This document shows positions 9,326 through 15,977 of a stretch of 32,645 bases of DNA, one piece after another. Source of the DNA: Archaeoglobaceae archaeon. GTDB taxonomy: Archaea > Halobacteriota > Archaeoglobi > Archaeoglobales > Archaeoglobaceae. Where the stretch lies: the NCBI GenBank assembly GCA_015523335.1, contig WAKM01000011.1, forward strand, positions 1 through 32,645, written 5' to 3'. The first letter of the stretch is position 1; each line of letters begins with the position of its first letter. The position numbers were made by a program, and so were the translations under genes. The notes under the pieces are model-generated. The model ran no database searches. It saw only the letters and a list, made by a program, of their open reading frames with translations, and was not told where the DNA came from.

Positions 9326-10032
9326 TCATATATTCGGTTCGGTTTGTAGGATACTCCGAAAAGTTCTCGCATCCTCAAACATGTAGACGTTGTTGAACAT
9401 AACGTAAACCTTCCTATCCAAACTTTTTACGTAAGATGCAAGCCATCTGAGTTCTTCTTCGCTATACTTATGCTTATACATCCGAGTATGCCCGTGAAGA
9501 CGGAAATAATAGATTTTGCCGTAAACGGGCTTTGAAACGAAGGGATCCACGGCATGAACCAAATCCAATTCCTCGCAAACAGCTTTTACGCTCTCATCCT
9601 TCCAACCTCTGGCTCGAAGGCGAAGATGAAGTCCCTCTCTACGGATGAGAAGAAATCCTTCATGTTTCGAATGTTTTCTTCTGTATCCTTAAACGACTTT
9701 GGAGTCTGAAATACGATAACCTTAGCCTTCAGTATTTTTGCGATTTCCTTGGTGATCTTCCAAGCTTCAAAAACTTCTTTGCAAGGTTTGAAAAATCCGG
9801 CATTTTTCGGCTTGTAACCCAACCTCTTGTATGTAGGTGAGTTTGGAGGGTGCGTTATAACCTGAAAAGCCTTCGCAGTAAATTCAAAATCTTCTGGAGC
9901 TTCCTTCCTCCATTTCTTAACCGTCGAAGGCTTCGGAGGCTTGTAGAAGGTTTGCTGAACCTCAACAACTGAAAAATTTTTGTAGTATTCCTCCTTTTTA
10001 ACCGGAAAACCACAACATCCGACCTTTATCAT
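9326..10032 (-). pseudogene. DUF72 (COG1801) gene broken by a one-base deletion
   Basis: The 5' part (10032 to about 9611) encodes KVGCCGFPVKKEEYYKNF, then VVEVQQTFYKPPKPSTVKKW and SSVERDFIFAFEP, the N-terminal two thirds of a DUF72 TIM-barrel protein. There the frame runs into EVGRMRA and a stop. The next frame, read from the same point, continues RGWKDESVKAVCEELDLVHAVDPF and runs to a stop at 9326 with FRLHGHTRMYKHKYS, the expected C-terminal part. A single missing base between 9610 and 9611 (TTC GAG CC- AGA GGT TGG) explains the break; restoring it gives about 235 aa, normal for the family. This is either a recent mutation or a sequencing error. DUF72 function is unknown. Start chosen at the ATG before IKVGCCG, 10 nt after the glycerate kinase stop. 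Confidence 0.85.
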
Positions 10033-10042
10033 AGTTCGCCGA

Positions 10043-11386
10043 TTACAAGACCACGGCCACAACTAAAGAGTTCACGTTTGTTTTGGTTGCTCCGGTAAAA
10101 ACTAAACCCTTAGCCACTTTCAAAGCCTCGTATGCGTTGTGATTGTTCAGGTATTCATCTACATCGATTCCGTTAGCCTCCAAAACAGCCAAAGTGTGGC
10201 TGTCAACGATTCCTCCTGCTGCATCCGTTGGACCATCCGTGCCGTCGGTGTCGATCGAGATTATACAGCATCCTCTAAGTTTGGCGATCTTTTTAGCAGA
10301 ACTCAAAGCCAACTCTTGATTTGGTCCACCCTTTCCAGCTTTGCCGGCTATGGTTACGGTAGTTTCACCTCCGAATATCAAAACTGCTGGCCTCTTAAAA
10401 GGTCTATCGTTTTTCCATACCTCCTGAACTATTGAAGCTATTACCGTTCCAACGTGTTTGGCTTCTCCTTCAAGCGCTGAAGTTACGATGTGTGCTGGAT
10501 AACCCAACTCTTTGGCTTTCTCGCGTGCAAACTCGCAAACCTTCTTCGAGCTACAGATCAGGAAGTTGTGGACGTTTTTAAGATCTTCTTTAAGTGTCTC
10601 CTCTCTCATTCCTTTCATTCCAAGCTCTATATGCTTTTTAACAGATTCTGGAACTTTATCCCAAATCGAATGGTTCCTGAGAACTTTATAAGCATCTTCG
10701 AATGTCGTCGGATCTTTAACCGTAATTCCGGAAGCTATGACCTCCAAGTTGTCCCCAACAACGTCGGAGATTATGAGTGATATAACCTCCCCTTTAACAT
10801 CTTTAACGAATTTGCCACCTTTAACCTTCGATATGTGCTTTCTGACTGTATTTATCTCGTGAATCTTAGCCCCACTTTTCAGCAGTAGCTCGTTCGTTTT
10901 GATTTTGTCTTGGAGCGATATTCCGTCTTCGGGCATCACGAACAATGCGGAACCTCCGCCGGAAACGAGAACGATCAGAATATCGTTTTTACCAACCTTC
11001 TTGACTATTTCTATCGCCTTTTCAGCTCCCCTGACGGAGTTCTCATCGGGAATTGGATGTCCAGCTTCTACGACATCTATTCTGCTTAACGGTATTGCGT
11101 AGCCGTATTTCGTTATAGCGATACCTTCCTTAATCTTACTACCCAAAAGCTCTTCTATAGCCTTTGCCATCGGGCATGAAGCCTTACCAATCGCAACAAC
11201 GTAGATATCTCCTACAATTTCGAAGCTTCTTCCCTCCACAACGATTCTGCTACCTTCAACTCTAACGCTCTCCTTAACGATTCTATACGGATCTGCCTTT
11301 GAAATGACGTGCTCGACTATTTGCAAGGCTGTATCTTTGGCTTCAACATCGCCGAAGCTCAAAATTTCATCCTTATTTTTGATCAT
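10043..11386 (-). CDS. gck: Glycerate 2-kinase (MOFRL family)
   Basis: The enzyme phosphorylates D-glycerate with ATP to 2-phosphoglycerate, feeding glycolysis. The 447-aa product has the family's N-terminal Rossmann-like half (VVAIGKASCPMAKAIEE, EAGHPIPDENSVRGAEKA, LVSGGGSALFVMPE) and the MOFRL C-terminal domain with FGGETTVTIAGKAGKGGPNQELALS and IDTDGTDGPTDAAGG. Length is normal. It starts 1 nt after the GH38 stop with a strong GGAGG ribosome-binding sequence that lies in the last GH38 codons, so the two genes are translationally tied. Glycerate is exactly the product a mannosylglycerate hydrolase would release, which makes this gene a natural recycling partner for the upstream cluster. Confidence 0.93.
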   Translation of the reverse strand: MIKNKDEILSFGDVEAKDTALQIVEHVISKADPYRIVKESVRVEGSRIVVEGRSFEIVGDIYVVAIGKASCPMAKAIEELLGSKIKEGIAITKYGYAIPLSRIDVVEAGHPIPDENSVRGAEKAIEIVKKVGKNDILIVLVSGGGSALFVMPEDGISLQDKIKTNELLLKSGAKIHEINTVRKHISKVKGGKFVKDVKGEVISLIISDVVGDNLEVIASGITVKDPTTFEDAYKVLRNHSIWDKVPESVKKHIELGMKGMREETLKEDLKNVHNFLICSSKKVCEFAREKAKELGYPAHIVTSALEGEAKHVGTVIASIVQEVWKNDRPFKRPAVLIFGGETTVTIAGKAGKGGPNQELALSSAKKIAKLRGCCIISIDTDGTDGPTDAAGGIVDSHTLAVLEANGIDVDEYLNNHNAYEALKVAKGLVFTGATKTNVNSLVVAVVL

Positions 11387-11387
11387 C

Positions 11388-13982
11388 TTACTCCTCCTTA
11401 AGCTTAATTCTAAGAGTAACGATTTCGAACGGATTTATTTCGAATCTAACCTTATTGCCATCAATTTCTACTTCCTTGTCGAATTCTTCAACGTATTCCT
11501 CGAGTAGATTTACGACCTTAGCGAATTCAACATCTCTGAAGAACTCTATCTCAGCCTTCGCCCTTTCCCCCGTTGCCTCGTAAACCCTTACGATGATATC
11601 ATCACCCTCTTCAGATCTCTTCAAAGCGGTTAGGATGACATTATCCGGCTTAACCCTCAGGAACGATCTGGAAGGTCTGAACTTTCTGTCAGGTGGGATC
11701 TGCAAAGCGATCAGATCGTAGTTGAATTCGTAACCCATCTTATACGATTTCGCATCCTTCCAAGTTCCTTCGTGCGGATAAACCGAGTATTTGAACTCGT
11801 ATCGTTTGTTGAGCTCCATAGCATCGTAAACCGGAATTACCGGCCCCTCTTTGCCGTGAGATAGCAGATCCACAGATCTCAGCAGTGTGATGTATATTGA
11901 GCCATCTCTAACTTCGTTTTCTGGAGTTCCTCTGTTCATAACGGTTACACCATACTTATCGTTGCTGTAATCTATCCATCTCAGCGAAGGATAGACACCG
12001 GAAGGTTTCTCAACCCAACCCTCCGGATTAAAGTAATACATGTTCGTCTTTCTGTTTATAGCTCCGAACTGCATGTCGCACGTGTATTCCTCCTCCTTTA
12101 TGTTCGTCTTGAACCTCACTCTTATCCTCGTCCTCGGATGTTTGTTCTCAACTACGGTTACGAAATCTATTCGCGGCAAGTCTCTGTATACTATTATCTT
12201 CTTGATGAACGACACGTAGTTGTGTTTCCAAATAACTGGTTTCCATTTCTCGGTGAGTCTGTATGGCCAGATTAGGGAGTAGTATCTGGTTTCGACCGTT
12301 ATTATAACCCTCAGCGGCGTATCCTCGACGGTTAGATTATCGACCTTAAACCTACCGAATCTAATTCCTTCGCCACCTTCAGCCTTAACGGGCGTTTCTA
12401 TGTCCTCGTAGTGATGGTAGAGATCTCCGGCTTCGCTGTCAACGACCATCTCGTTTCCTTCGTAAAGAATGACGTCATCGCCCTTACTTACCATGATTAT
12501 TCCGTTCTCTGGATTGAAGTTAACTCGGAAGAACTTGTTGTTGATTACCGTGGAACCCCTAATTAGGTGTCTGTCCGTCTTCTCTTCTGGCTCTCTTTCG
12601 ATAAGCTTGTAAACCTTATAGCCTAACGCAGGAACTTCTGCAACGAAACCGATTCTCGCATAACCTATCGAGCCATCGTAGTATCTGCTTATCTTGATTA
12701 TATCCACCCTCCTCTCTTCATCCCCGCACTTCACACCCTTTATGTCGTAAATGTAACCCCTGTCAAAGCTTAGATCTACCTCAACCCAATTTTCCACATC
12801 CCAAGAGAGCGGATTGAAAACTACTATGTCCCCAGCCATCGACTCGTTCGAATCCACATCGAGTATGCACCTGAGTATGTCTTCCATCAGATGCGGAATC
12901 TTCATTTTTAGGAAGCTTATGTTGTATCTAACTTCGGTGTAACCTTCATCCGCACCCGTTCCCGGCAGTATGTCGTGGAAAGCGTTGAACAGTATCTTCT
13001 TCCAGCAGTTGTCGAGTTCTTCCGTATGATACTGACCAGACAGAAGACTGCAAACGGTATCGAACCTCTCAAGGGTTAGCAGATCGCATTCGAGCCTTCT
13101 CAAATTGAGCTTGATCCAGATTCTGCTCGATGCCGTATCCGGAAATACCGGCGAAAATCTTCCGCAATACATCTCCCCCTTCCTAACCGGCAACCTATCA
13201 GCGAATTTCTCAACCTCCCTGAAGAATTCCAAGGGAGTGGAGATCTTCATTATCGAACTTTCGTGAGTTTCGTTCCATCTCTTCACAGCCTCTACGATCT
13301 CCTCCTGCGGAGGCGTAGAGCCGCTACCGGAAGGCATCAGAATGTGATTTGAAAACGCGCACTCCTTAAGGAAACTGTAACTGTCCTCCCACTTGTCTAT
13401 GTAAAGACCAGCTCTGTATCCTAACGGAAAAACGTGAGCTATGATCCTCGTTCCGTCCAAACCTTCCCAGACGAATTCCGAAGGTTTTATTTCTGGGCAC
13501 CCCCTCCTAAATGCTACATATTTGTAGCCGCTCTTTCTGTAAATTTGAGGCAGTTGGGCGTTCAAGCCAAAGCTGTCAGCCTGCCACATAACTTCCACAT
13601 CTTTTCCGAATTTCTGCCTGACGTATCTCTTCCCAAATAAGATCTCCCTGACGAGGGTCTCCTCTTGGGGCAACATAGTATCCGCCATTAAATACTCCCC
13701 ATCCGCAATCTCGATCCTACCTTCTCGCACGAAGTTGCGAATCTTTTCAAAAAGCTCTGGATATCTGCTTTCGATCTCTTCGAGCAGAAAAGCTTGCTCG
13801 ATCAGAAACTTGTATTCATCGAACTCCTCAAGTATCTCAATAACTTTTTTTAGAATAAAGTCTATATTTATATAGAAATAATCTTCTTTCGTAAATACCC
13901 AAACTGCGTCGTAGTGCGTGTGCGGAACGACGTAAATAACGTCTTTTTCCTTCTTAATCTCTTCCGAGCCGTTCTCGGACAT
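11388..13982 (-). CDS. Glycoside hydrolase family 38 alpha-mannosidase, putative mannosylglycerate hydrolase
   Basis: The 864-aa product has a GH38 catalytic domain at residues about 15-345: the metal-binding HTHYDAVW (His23 and Asp25 correspond to zinc ligands), WQADSFGLNAQLPQI with Asp136 as likely nucleophile, and FHDILPGTGADEGY with His336 as a further ligand. The rest is the beta-rich C-terminal region usual for the family. No signal peptide is seen, so it acts in the cytosol. GH38 includes alpha-mannosidases and the bacterial MngB that cleaves phosphorylated mannosylglycerate. Its place 4 nt after the mannosyl-3-phosphoglycerate phosphatase gene and 1 nt before glycerate kinase strongly suggests that it splits mannosylglycerate to mannose and glycerate. 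The family call is seen in sequence; the substrate is inference. Confidence 0.9.
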   Translation of the reverse strand: MSENGSEEIKKEKDVIYVVPHTHYDAVWVFTKEDYFYINIDFILKKVIEILEEFDEYKFLIEQAFLLEEIESRYPELFEKIRNFVREGRIEIADGEYLMADTMLPQEETLVREILFGKRYVRQKFGKDVEVMWQADSFGLNAQLPQIYRKSGYKYVAFRRGCPEIKPSEFVWEGLDGTRIIAHVFPLGYRAGLYIDKWEDSYSFLKECAFSNHILMPSGSGSTPPQEEIVEAVKRWNETHESSIMKISTPLEFFREVEKFADRLPVRKGEMYCGRFSPVFPDTASSRIWIKLNLRRLECDLLTLERFDTVCSLLSGQYHTEELDNCWKKILFNAFHDILPGTGADEGYTEVRYNISFLKMKIPHLMEDILRCILDVDSNESMAGDIVVFNPLSWDVENWVEVDLSFDRGYIYDIKGVKCGDEERRVDIIKISRYYDGSIGYARIGFVAEVPALGYKVYKLIEREPEEKTDRHLIRGSTVINNKFFRVNFNPENGIIMVSKGDDVILYEGNEMVVDSEAGDLYHHYEDIETPVKAEGGEGIRFGRFKVDNLTVEDTPLRVIITVETRYYSLIWPYRLTEKWKPVIWKHNYVSFIKKIIVYRDLPRIDFVTVVENKHPRTRIRVRFKTNIKEEEYTCDMQFGAINRKTNMYYFNPEGWVEKPSGVYPSLRWIDYSNDKYGVTVMNRGTPENEVRDGSIYITLLRSVDLLSHGKEGPVIPVYDAMELNKRYEFKYSVYPHEGTWKDAKSYKMGYEFNYDLIALQIPPDRKFRPSRSFLRVKPDNVILTALKRSEEGDDIIVRVYEATGERAKAEIEFFRDVEFAKVVNLLEEYVEEFDKEVEIDGNKVRFEINPFEIVTLRIKLKEE

Positions 13983-13986
13983 GGTA

Positions 13987-14760
13987 TCACCCTAAAACGA
14001 ACTTCTCAACGACTTCAACCCATCCCACCGTTGCTATACCCTCCGCTTTATAAAGATTTTTAATATTTATGTTCGCCCAACAATCGGGGTTCTTCACAAG
14101 GGCCGGAATGTCCACCGCTCTGAGCATAGGCTCGTCGGTGTATGAGTTTCCGATTCCTACGGTTACGACATCTCCGTAAAGTTCCCTGTAAAGATCGGTC
14201 AGAATTCTGACCGCTTTCCCCTTATCCGCATTCTTTCCGTATACGTGAATAAACCTACCGCCCACCACGACGTTAAAATCCTTCTCAAGTTCTTTTAGAG
14301 CTCCCTCTTCCGCAAAAACTATCGTTTCGCTGAATTCCCTGATCTTTGCGAGTTTTGCGAGCTCCAAACTCAAGCCGGTAACCTTGGCTACCTCCTCTAC
14401 GCTCATGAAGTAGTAGCTCTTTATTTCATACTTCTTCCTCAGTTCTTCGATCTTGTTCACTATTTTCTCGTATTCAACTCCCAAAACTATGACCTCGTAG
14501 CCATCCCTCGACTCTCCGCACCTCCTCGCAAAGTAACCTTTCGGAACGTATATCGCTGAGCCGTCCTCAACGATAAACGGATCGTTTATTCCCATCTCAG
14601 CTCTAAAAACTTCCTGTTCGGCTTTCGTTTTTGCCGAACAGAAAACTATAGGAACTCCGAGACTTTTGAGCTTGTCTATCGTTGGTTTTGCGTAATCGAA
14701 GGAGTAGTTTTCGTCTAAAAGAGTCCCGTCTAAGTCCGTAAATACGACGAATTTACTCAT
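13987..14760 (-). CDS. mpgP: Mannosyl-3-phosphoglycerate phosphatase
   Basis: The HAD-family enzyme removes phosphate from mannosyl-3-phosphoglycerate to give mannosylglycerate, a compatible solute of thermophiles. The 257-aa product has the nucleophile motif FTDLDGTLLDENY (Asp9 and Asp11), VFCSAKTKAEQEVF, the family segment FIVEDGSAIYVPKGYF, HVYGKNADKGKAVRIL and the acidic motif GIGNSYTDEPML, all as expected for the MpgP subfamily. The start is the ATG at 14758-14760; a GTG one codon upstream is also possible. It follows mpgS by 17 nt and precedes GH38 by 4 nt; the stop codon sits inside a GGGTGAT that can act as ribosome binding site for GH38. Confidence 0.94.
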   Translation of the reverse strand: MSKFVVFTDLDGTLLDENYSFDYAKPTIDKLKSLGVPIVFCSAKTKAEQEVFRAEMGINDPFIVEDGSAIYVPKGYFARRCGESRDGYEVIVLGVEYEKIVNKIEELRKKYEIKSYYFMSVEEVAKVTGLSLELAKLAKIREFSETIVFAEEGALKELEKDFNVVVGGRFIHVYGKNADKGKAVRILTDLYRELYGDVVTVGIGNSYTDEPMLRAVDIPALVKNPDCWANINIKNLYKAEGIATVGWVEVVEKFVLG

Positions 14761-14777
14761 CACTATTATTAAGATGA

Positions 14778-15947
14778 TTATCCATACATTATAAACGTTT
14801 CGGAGTATTCGTCTAAGAGTTTATTGAACTCCTTTATATCAATCGAATTTATAGGTGGCATAATTTCGTTCTTTTTTATTTCCGTTTTTCTTTTTATCAC
14901 TCCGTTCCTCTTCAACTCCTCTACGATGTCGTTTCTGAGCTTTTCATTCGAAAGCTTGCTGTGGTATATGGTTGCCAGAGACTGGAGAAGCATCTCCTTT
15001 ATGTGCTCGTCGCCCTTTTCCTCATGTATATGCGGGTTGAGCGTTTCGATTTGGTAGACTTCGATCCCGGAAGTTACGGCTTCCTTAAACTTTGTTTCGC
15101 CTTTCCAGAACTCCTCAAGGAGATACACCAGCTGGTAAGGCTCGATTGAGTAGCCGGTGGAAAACGCCATAATTTCGGCCAGCTTCATCGTCATCGCGTG
15201 CTCGCCGGCGTTTCCGGTTTTGATTATGTTCGTTTCGAATCCTGTTTGAACGGCTAAAAGCATGTTGAGGTATCTGTTCGTAATTTCGGAAACCCTTCCC
15301 CATTTTCTGAAGTAGAGCCTATCTTCGATTACCTTCGGCTTGTATCTCCAGTGAAGCCTAACCATAGAGTATGGAGTGTTGGAAATGCTTAGCCCGGCGC
15401 AGTAGAGTCTGACGTATTCGTTTACGGAACAGGGAATGTAATTATCGGCATCGACAAAACCGACGTAATCGCTACCGATCCTCTTGGCAAGAAGCAAACC
15501 GATGATCATTCCCTCAGCCTTACCGTTCCTAACGAAACCGGTCTCATCCAAAATGTACTCATAGCCGACTTCCTTAAAAGCAACACCCAGACCGGGATCC
15601 TTTTGATGAATTAAAACGATGGGATGCTTAGTAACTCTATAAAAATCGGAAATTAGGTCTCTCTCCATTTTAAATATATCCTTCTCTCCCCTCTGGCTGT
15701 TCGAAACCACGACTATGTTGCATCCCAACGGAATGGACCTAAGAACTCCGTCGAGCAGATGCATCTTCTCATCCTTTATCGGAACGACTATCGTCATTCT
15801 GTTGAGAATCTCCTCCATCTCCTCTTTCGAAAATCCTCGGAGTAATTCCGAATGAACTTCCTCGGATTCGAATTTCAGGACTCTCTGAACTTCGTGGATT
15901 TTGATGCACCCAAATATCTCCGTATGCTTGGGCAACTCTATGAGCAT
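14778..15947 (-). CDS. mpgS: Mannosyl-3-phosphoglycerate synthase (GT55)
   Basis: The glycosyltransferase moves mannose from GDP-mannose to 3-phosphoglycerate, the committed step of mannosylglycerate synthesis. The 389-aa product has the family motifs TIVVPIKDEKMHLLDGVL (about residues 52-69), IVVVSNS, HQKDPGLGVAFKEVGY, VRNGKAEGMIIGLL and the metal-binding FVDADNYIP (Asp166 and Asp168). Further on, FRKWGRVSEITNRYLN and QTGFETNIIKTGNAGEHAM match MpgS. Length is normal and the phosphatase is a separate gene. It is first in the cluster, with a TATA box at 15970-15977 about 26 nt before the ATG, so transcripts are probably leaderless. Neighbours complete the solute pathway. Confidence 0.95.
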   Translation of the reverse strand: MLIELPKHTEIFGCIKIHEVQRVLKFESEEVHSELLRGFSKEEMEEILNRMTIVVPIKDEKMHLLDGVLRSIPLGCNIVVVSNSQRGEKDIFKMERDLISDFYRVTKHPIVLIHQKDPGLGVAFKEVGYEYILDETGFVRNGKAEGMIIGLLLAKRIGSDYVGFVDADNYIPCSVNEYVRLYCAGLSISNTPYSMVRLHWRYKPKVIEDRLYFRKWGRVSEITNRYLNMLLAVQTGFETNIIKTGNAGEHAMTMKLAEIMAFSTGYSIEPYQLVYLLEEFWKGETKFKEAVTSGIEVYQIETLNPHIHEEKGDEHIKEMLLQSLATIYHSKLSNEKLRNDIVEELKRNGVIKRKTEIKKNEIMPPINSIDIKEFNKLLDEYSETFIMYG

Positions 15948-15969
15948 TAATTAAGTTTTAAAGGGAGGA

Positions 15970-15977
15970 TATATAAA
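15970..15977 (-). promoter_or_regulatory. TATA box of the mannosylglycerate operon
   Basis: On the minus strand TTTATATA is centred about 26 nt before the mpgS ATG, ideal spacing for a leaderless archaeal transcript. It is the only convincing promoter seen ahead of the eight-gene cluster. The divergent argS promoter is only about 25 nt away, so the two could influence each other. Confidence 0.65.

Follow-up and report, generated by a model that had tools for sequence, protein, structure and literature searches.

Mannosyl-3-phosphoglycerate synthase (MpgS) and mannosyl-3-phosphoglycerate phosphatase (MpgP) convert GDP-mannose and 3-phosphoglycerate to the protective solute mannosylglycerate (MG), steps that are known for the Pyrococcus and Thermus homologues. 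The locus described here raises the question of whether an archaeon could encode the synthesis of MG, its hydrolysis, and the recycling of the released glycerate in one operon.

Gene row and promoter

The window, the stretch of 32,645 nt that was analyzed, comes from the MAG of a heat-loving member of the Archaeoglobaceae (G000; 1.40 Mb, 99% complete) that belongs to genus g1 together with L045–L047 and L051. Its ORF listing contains a minus-strand row that runs head to tail from 15947 to 10043 and consists of mpgS, mpgP, a GH38 glycosidase gene and the gene for a MOFRL-type glycerate kinase (GK) (Table 1). The original prediction had given these four genes in this order with gaps of 17, 4 and 1 nt, and the ORFs confirm it: mpgS and mpgP are separated by 14 nt, or by 17 nt if the second mpgP start (ATG, 14760) is used, and the following gaps are 4 nt (mpgP-GH38) and 1 nt (GH38-GK). 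The single TATA box that had been placed ahead of the row, TTTATATAT, is also present, and its spacing to mpgS is the same in L045, L046, L047 and L051, the four sister genomes within g1. Judged by the usual archaeal TATA-to-start distance, its position suggests that a transcript starting near the box would be leaderless or nearly so. An SD-like AAGGAGGAG lies upstream of GK within the end of GH38, and argS, from 16033, runs in the opposite direction to the mpgS row. We infer from this layout that the four genes share one transcript. Genes for DUF72, GGACT and metallo-hydrolase proteins may extend the row; the DUF72 ORF overlaps GK by 20 nt. This DUF72 gene 3' of the kinase (window 9326-10062) consists of two ORFs here and of one ORF in L045 and L051; the split in the window is a frameshift or an assembly error.

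Table 1. Positions of the promoter element and the four genes of the row in the window.
Feature	Position	Strand	Details
TATA box TTTATATAT	15969..15977	-	21 nt upstream of mpgS ATG
mpgS, mannosyl-3-phosphoglycerate synthase (GT55)	14778..15947	-	389 aa; TIGR02460
mpgP, mannosyl-3-phosphoglycerate phosphatase (HAD-IIB)	13987..14763	-	258 aa; TIGR01486
GH38 glycosidase, predicted cytosolic MG hydrolase	11388..13982	-	864 aa; PF01074, PF09261, PF07748, PF17677
GK, class II (MOFRL) glycerate kinase, predicted glycerate 2-kinase	10043..11386	-	447 aa; PF13660 + PF05161

Synthesis genes

The mpgS product matched its family model over the full length at 549.4 bits (cut-off 351.2) and aligned end to end with P. 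horikoshii MPGS (2zu7, E 2.3e-147), with the DADNY motif present. The mpgP product scored 228.7 bits against the MPGP family model (cut-off 164.75), which makes it a member, and 240.6 bits against the equivalog TIGR02461, narrowly below the cut-off of 244.35. It matched MpgP from P. horikoshii (1wzc/2zos, E 7e-46) and Thermus (3ztw, E 3e-38). Judged by sequence, mpgS, GH38 and the MOFRL kinase can be assigned to their families firmly, and the assignment of mpgP is good. The manC gene of G000 lies on another contig (G000:C8:3228-4589) and not, as in the thermococcal operon, directly after mpgP.

Two variations on the synthesis genes were observed elsewhere. G009 has a second mpgS (L106, G009:C1:1159000-1178000) with 65% identity to the window mpgS and with manC nearby; neither mpgP nor GH38 was found beside this copy. 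Some ANME-1 MpgP proteins have an additional C-terminal methyltransferase domain, as at L056:11218-12573.

Recurrence of mpgS-mpgP-GH38 across genomes

The four-gene order mpgS-mpgP-GH38-GK was found in all five genomes of genus g1. Genus g12 (G015, G025 and G032) has mpgS-mpgP-GH38 without the terminal GK, and in genus g6 (G009 and G029) the trio is followed by manC, with GH38 between mpgP and manC. Among ANME-1 (Methanophagales, family f7), 14 genomes from genera g20, g55, g57, g68 and g114 have mpgP and GH38 fused, overlapping or separated by fewer than 100 nt. Over these 14 genomes (5 genera) and 10 Archaeoglobaceae genomes (3 genera) the mpgP-GH38 gaps range from −32 to 70 nt, with one fusion. 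By gene order, we regard mpgS-mpgP-GH38 as a conserved core in at least five ANME-1 genera and three Archaeoglobaceae genera, and GK as a local addition. Chance appears a very unlikely explanation, since other genera and another family carry the trio as well, at 55-66% identity. The original prediction had proposed to compare the gene order across Archaeoglobales and Thermococcales and took its absence from every relative as the case that would count against it. That case did not arise, as the trio recurs widely in Archaeoglobaceae and ANME-1; the four-gene order, however, is restricted to g1, and the trio was not present in the Thermococcales loci seen. No metabolic link was seen for hemL and hemC, neighbors of the g12 operon, or for the neighbors of unlinked ANME-1 GH38 genes (chemotaxis genes, TrpA, topoisomerase).

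The GH38 clade was present in 12 of the 13 Archaeoglobaceae genomes with mpgS and in none of the 23 without it (36 genomes). Across 394 genomes of the phylum, 57 had both mpgS and the GH38 clade, 6 had mpgS alone, 1 had the GH38 clade alone and 330 had neither, with clade membership taken as at least 44% identity or close fragments. Fisher values (1e-8, 8e-6 and 1e-60) are descriptive only and overstated, because related genomes share ancestry and are not independent. Adjacency across the Archaeoglobaceae/ANME-1 split, at 55-57% identity, is stronger evidence than co-occurrence. MG genomes without GH38 include G030, G259 and G038.

The glycerate kinase and its link to GH38

GK is a class II (MOFRL) member, with 274.5 bits for PF13660 and 122.6 bits for PF05161, and matched PH0495 (1x3l, E 4.8e-166) and T. 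maritima glycerate kinase (2b8n, E 2.3e-105). It scored below two glycerate 2-kinase equivalogs, NF041176 (311 vs 550 bits) and NF040791 (227 vs 670 bits), models that, to judge by their names, derive from other archaeal lineages. GK is probably a 2-kinase and not a 3-kinase, mainly because GK-enolase-GH38 clusters fit a route from glycerate through 2-phosphoglycerate to PEP. This order was found in the ANME-1 genomes G219 (L184) and G188 (L185), with gaps of 58 and ~21 nt.

It could be argued that GK stands outside the MG cycle, salvaging glycerate of other origin, and joined the operon in this genus only. Its presence in the operon only in g1 agrees with that, as do the frequent occurrence of GK in haloarchaea without MG and its absence from G009 (one contig, complete), which has mpgS-mpgP-GH38. 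We nevertheless consider such a role unlikely, since GK adjoins GH38 in three separate arrangements and is nearly confined to MG genera within Archaeoglobaceae. GK adjoins GH38 away from mpgS in G010, G227 and G277, and in genus g7 (G010, G227) the module is split, with mpgS-mpgP at one site and GK followed by GH38 at another. Of the 36 Archaeoglobaceae genomes, GK was found in 9/13 with mpgS and 0/23 without; a wider sample added two more Archaeoglobaceae that have GK and no detected mpgS, G246 and G303 (68% complete). Class I glycerate kinase (PF02595) was rejected as a stand-in for GK, being present in 0 of 16 genomes. ROK kinases were uninformative as candidate mannose kinases: most Archaeoglobaceae have them regardless of MG, and no ROK-type sugar kinase scored above the cut-off in G000.

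GH38 as a predicted MG hydrolase

All four Pfam domains of the window GH38 scored over their cut-offs, placing it in the GH38 family, and the catalytic residues H23, D25, D136 and H336 (HxD, Asp nucleophile, His) are invariant. Its AlphaFold model (pLDDT 84, pTM 0.89) has the bacterial GH38 structures 5kbp and 2wyh as nearest solved folds, aligned at full length with TM 0.82-0.84. No signal peptide was evident at the N-terminus, and the enzyme is predicted to be cytosolic with an intact Zn/nucleophile site. Against the MngB equivalog model NF007331/PRK09819 it reached 316.6 bits, far from the cut-off of 1138, and its Pfam matches comprised GH38 and weak GH57 only, with no GH63 domain among them. 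Its specificity for MG is suggested by gene context. Active-site residues specific to the MG clade were listed from the alignment; we know of no MG-bound GH38 structure from which to read them. In a tree that was built quickly and has long outgroup branches, the MG-linked archaeal members formed one group apart from all other sampled GH38s, with the Archaeoglobaceae on one side of a branch (98).

Because the structural relatives of GH38 are alpha-mannosidases (S. pyogenes 2wyh, Ams1, E. faecalis 5kbp) and archaea without mpgS also carry other GH38s (L197-L200), we considered a general alpha-mannosidase that trims glycans or attacks outside mannosides and sits in the MG operon by accident. This is improbable given that mpgS is present in 57 of the 58 genomes that have the clade, that one member is fused to MpgP, that the protein has no signal peptide, and that no transporter or other glycosidase lies beside GH38 in the window. 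Moreover, G021 keeps a distinct, distant GH38 besides its MG-linked one.

The fusion occurs in the ANME-1 MAG G185 (L130:6121-9576), where a single frame of 1151 aa contains complete MpgP (residues 2-269) and GH38 (residues 272-1151) sequences. It joins the phosphatase that makes MG to the glycosidase whose predicted substrate is MG. At the junction the stop and the ~40-nt spacer kept by relatives are missing; this pattern, seen in a single MAG, resembles a deletion more than an error in one base. A role for GH38 in synthesis or editing, on mannosyl-3-phosphoglycerate or by mannose transfer to a derived solute, would suit its place in the synthetic operon directly 3' of mpgP, once fused, as well as the capacity of retaining glycosidases for transglycosylation, but it is very improbable because clusters of GH38 with GK, or with GK and enolase, at sites away from mpgS indicate glycerate release and because MG is made without GH38 in Thermococcales (L055, L057-L059).

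Three bacterial loci also place GH38 near MG synthesis. Those in L075 and L079 are of a different kind, nearer MngB (532 and 497 bits against NF007331), and lie within or adjoining mpgS-mpgP, which suggests that MG synthesis has acquired a GH38 partner on more than one occasion; in L091 GH38 is convergent with mpgS-mpgP. The bacterial neighbors c32 and c29 were rejected as hidden MG hydrolases and are a Na/H exchanger and a DNA ligase.

Proposed turnover of MG

We think it quite probable, from gene content and order, that the row is an MG turnover operon combining synthesis, hydrolysis by GH38 and recycling of glycerate via GK. This pathway of making, hydrolyzing and recycling, put forward in the original prediction, finds good support in gene order, co-occurrence, the MpgP-GH38 fusion and the GH38-kinase(-enolase) clusters, with the activities predicted. 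MpgS and MpgP would form MG from GDP-mannose and 3-phosphoglycerate, and cytosolic GH38 would split it into mannose and D-glycerate. The MOFRL kinase, judged by its family and by the kinase-enolase-GH38 clusters, would then yield 2-phosphoglycerate, which could pass through enolase to PEP or through a mutase back to 3-phosphoglycerate. With both arms in one cell, MG could be drawn down after salt or heat stress or spent as a carbon reserve. Our guess is that a futile cycle is prevented because either enzyme activity is regulated or little flux passes through the hydrolase. The original prediction took cotranscription to imply post-translational control or a turnover role; a low, steady turnover, or an effect of solute or salt on the enzymes, would fit just as well as post-translational control. 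Precedents for controlled draw-down are the abrupt fall of MG in Rhodothermus at entry to stationary phase (PMC1224877) and the removal of glucosylglycerate by mycobacterial GgH on recovery from nitrogen starvation (PMC6608630).

Genes for MscS-type mechanosensitive channels were observed near ANME-1 GH38 (L143:3017-3874, L166:12284-13099 and L173:9900-10757), a placement that would be compatible with a role in osmotic downshift.

Possible amidation of MG

Full-length AsnB-type (glutamine amidotransferase/asparagine-synthase) genes adjoin mpgS in G009 (L106:6865-8538) and G259 (L116:9355-11037), the only two of the searched Archaeoglobaceae in which this close full-length form was found. Such genes also lie near mpgS in Nitrososphaerales (L064, 7322-9004; L074, L083 and L086) and beside or near GH38 in ANME-1 (L134:16676-18265, L166:783-2360 and L166:10140-11720). 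In ANME-1, a carbon-nitrogen hydrolase gene directly 3' of GH38 was seen at L134:11041-11787, L166:6671-7420, L139:4727-5473 and L171:369-1133, and several genomes have the AsnB-type gene, the carbon-nitrogen hydrolase and MscS together beside or near GH38. The AsnB-type proteins may be mannosylglyceramide synthetases and the carbon-nitrogen hydrolase a mannosylglyceramide amidase. Amidation and deamidation between MG and mannosylglyceramide is a natural guess by analogy with the amidotransferase of the osmolyte NAGGN (TIGR03104). Tentatively, a dedicated and so far undescribed module for MG turnover, based on a new subfamily of GH38, might be common to Archaeoglobaceae and ANME-1; some lineages would add AsnB and the carbon-nitrogen hydrolase to interconvert charged MG and neutral mannosylglyceramide. 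If so, cells would adjust both the charge and the amount of solute through synthesis and hydrolysis on the one hand and amidation and deamidation on the other.

Comparison with known systems

No description of an archaeal MG hydrolase or of a make-and-break operon was found in the open literature searched; within its incomplete coverage the disposal of MG by archaea seems undescribed, and named candidate enzymes are now given. They also raise the testable question of how one operon could direct synthesis and hydrolysis of one solute without wasting GDP-mannose. The MG synthesis genes of ANME-1 have been considered a possible salt-tolerance trait (Meyerdierks 2010, cited in PMC4335971), and the citing passage makes no mention of a GH38 partner, a fusion, or a kinase/enolase link. 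Solute handling in ANME-1 may bear on salt tolerance.

The Thermococcales MG operon mpgS-mpgP-manC (e.g. Pyrococcus horikoshii) begins with the two synthetic enzymes in the order seen here, with 55-57% identity for MpgS. In the thermococcal loci manC follows mpgP and neither GH38 nor GK is present, whereas in G000 the row continues with these two genes. E. coli MngB is a GH38 enzyme (EC 3.2.1.170) that cleaves 6-phospho-MG imported by the PTS transporter MngA. It has in common with the window enzyme the GH38 family and a glycerate-releasing reaction, predicted here; unlike MngB, the window enzyme falls short of the MngB model, is not accompanied by a PTS transporter, and would act on unphosphorylated MG made by the cell itself. 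Within cells that synthesize the solute, MgH of Thermus and GgH of mycobacteria cleave MG or glucosylglycerate in unphosphorylated form, and we know of no such GH63 enzyme in an operon with mpgS. Both have the (alpha/alpha)6 barrel of GH63, whereas the window enzyme has the different fold and family of GH38. The best reading is that the archaeal enzymes belong to an intracellular MG turnover module and form a putative MG-hydrolyzing GH38 subfamily that is not orthologous to MngB and is unlike the GH63 MG hydrolases.
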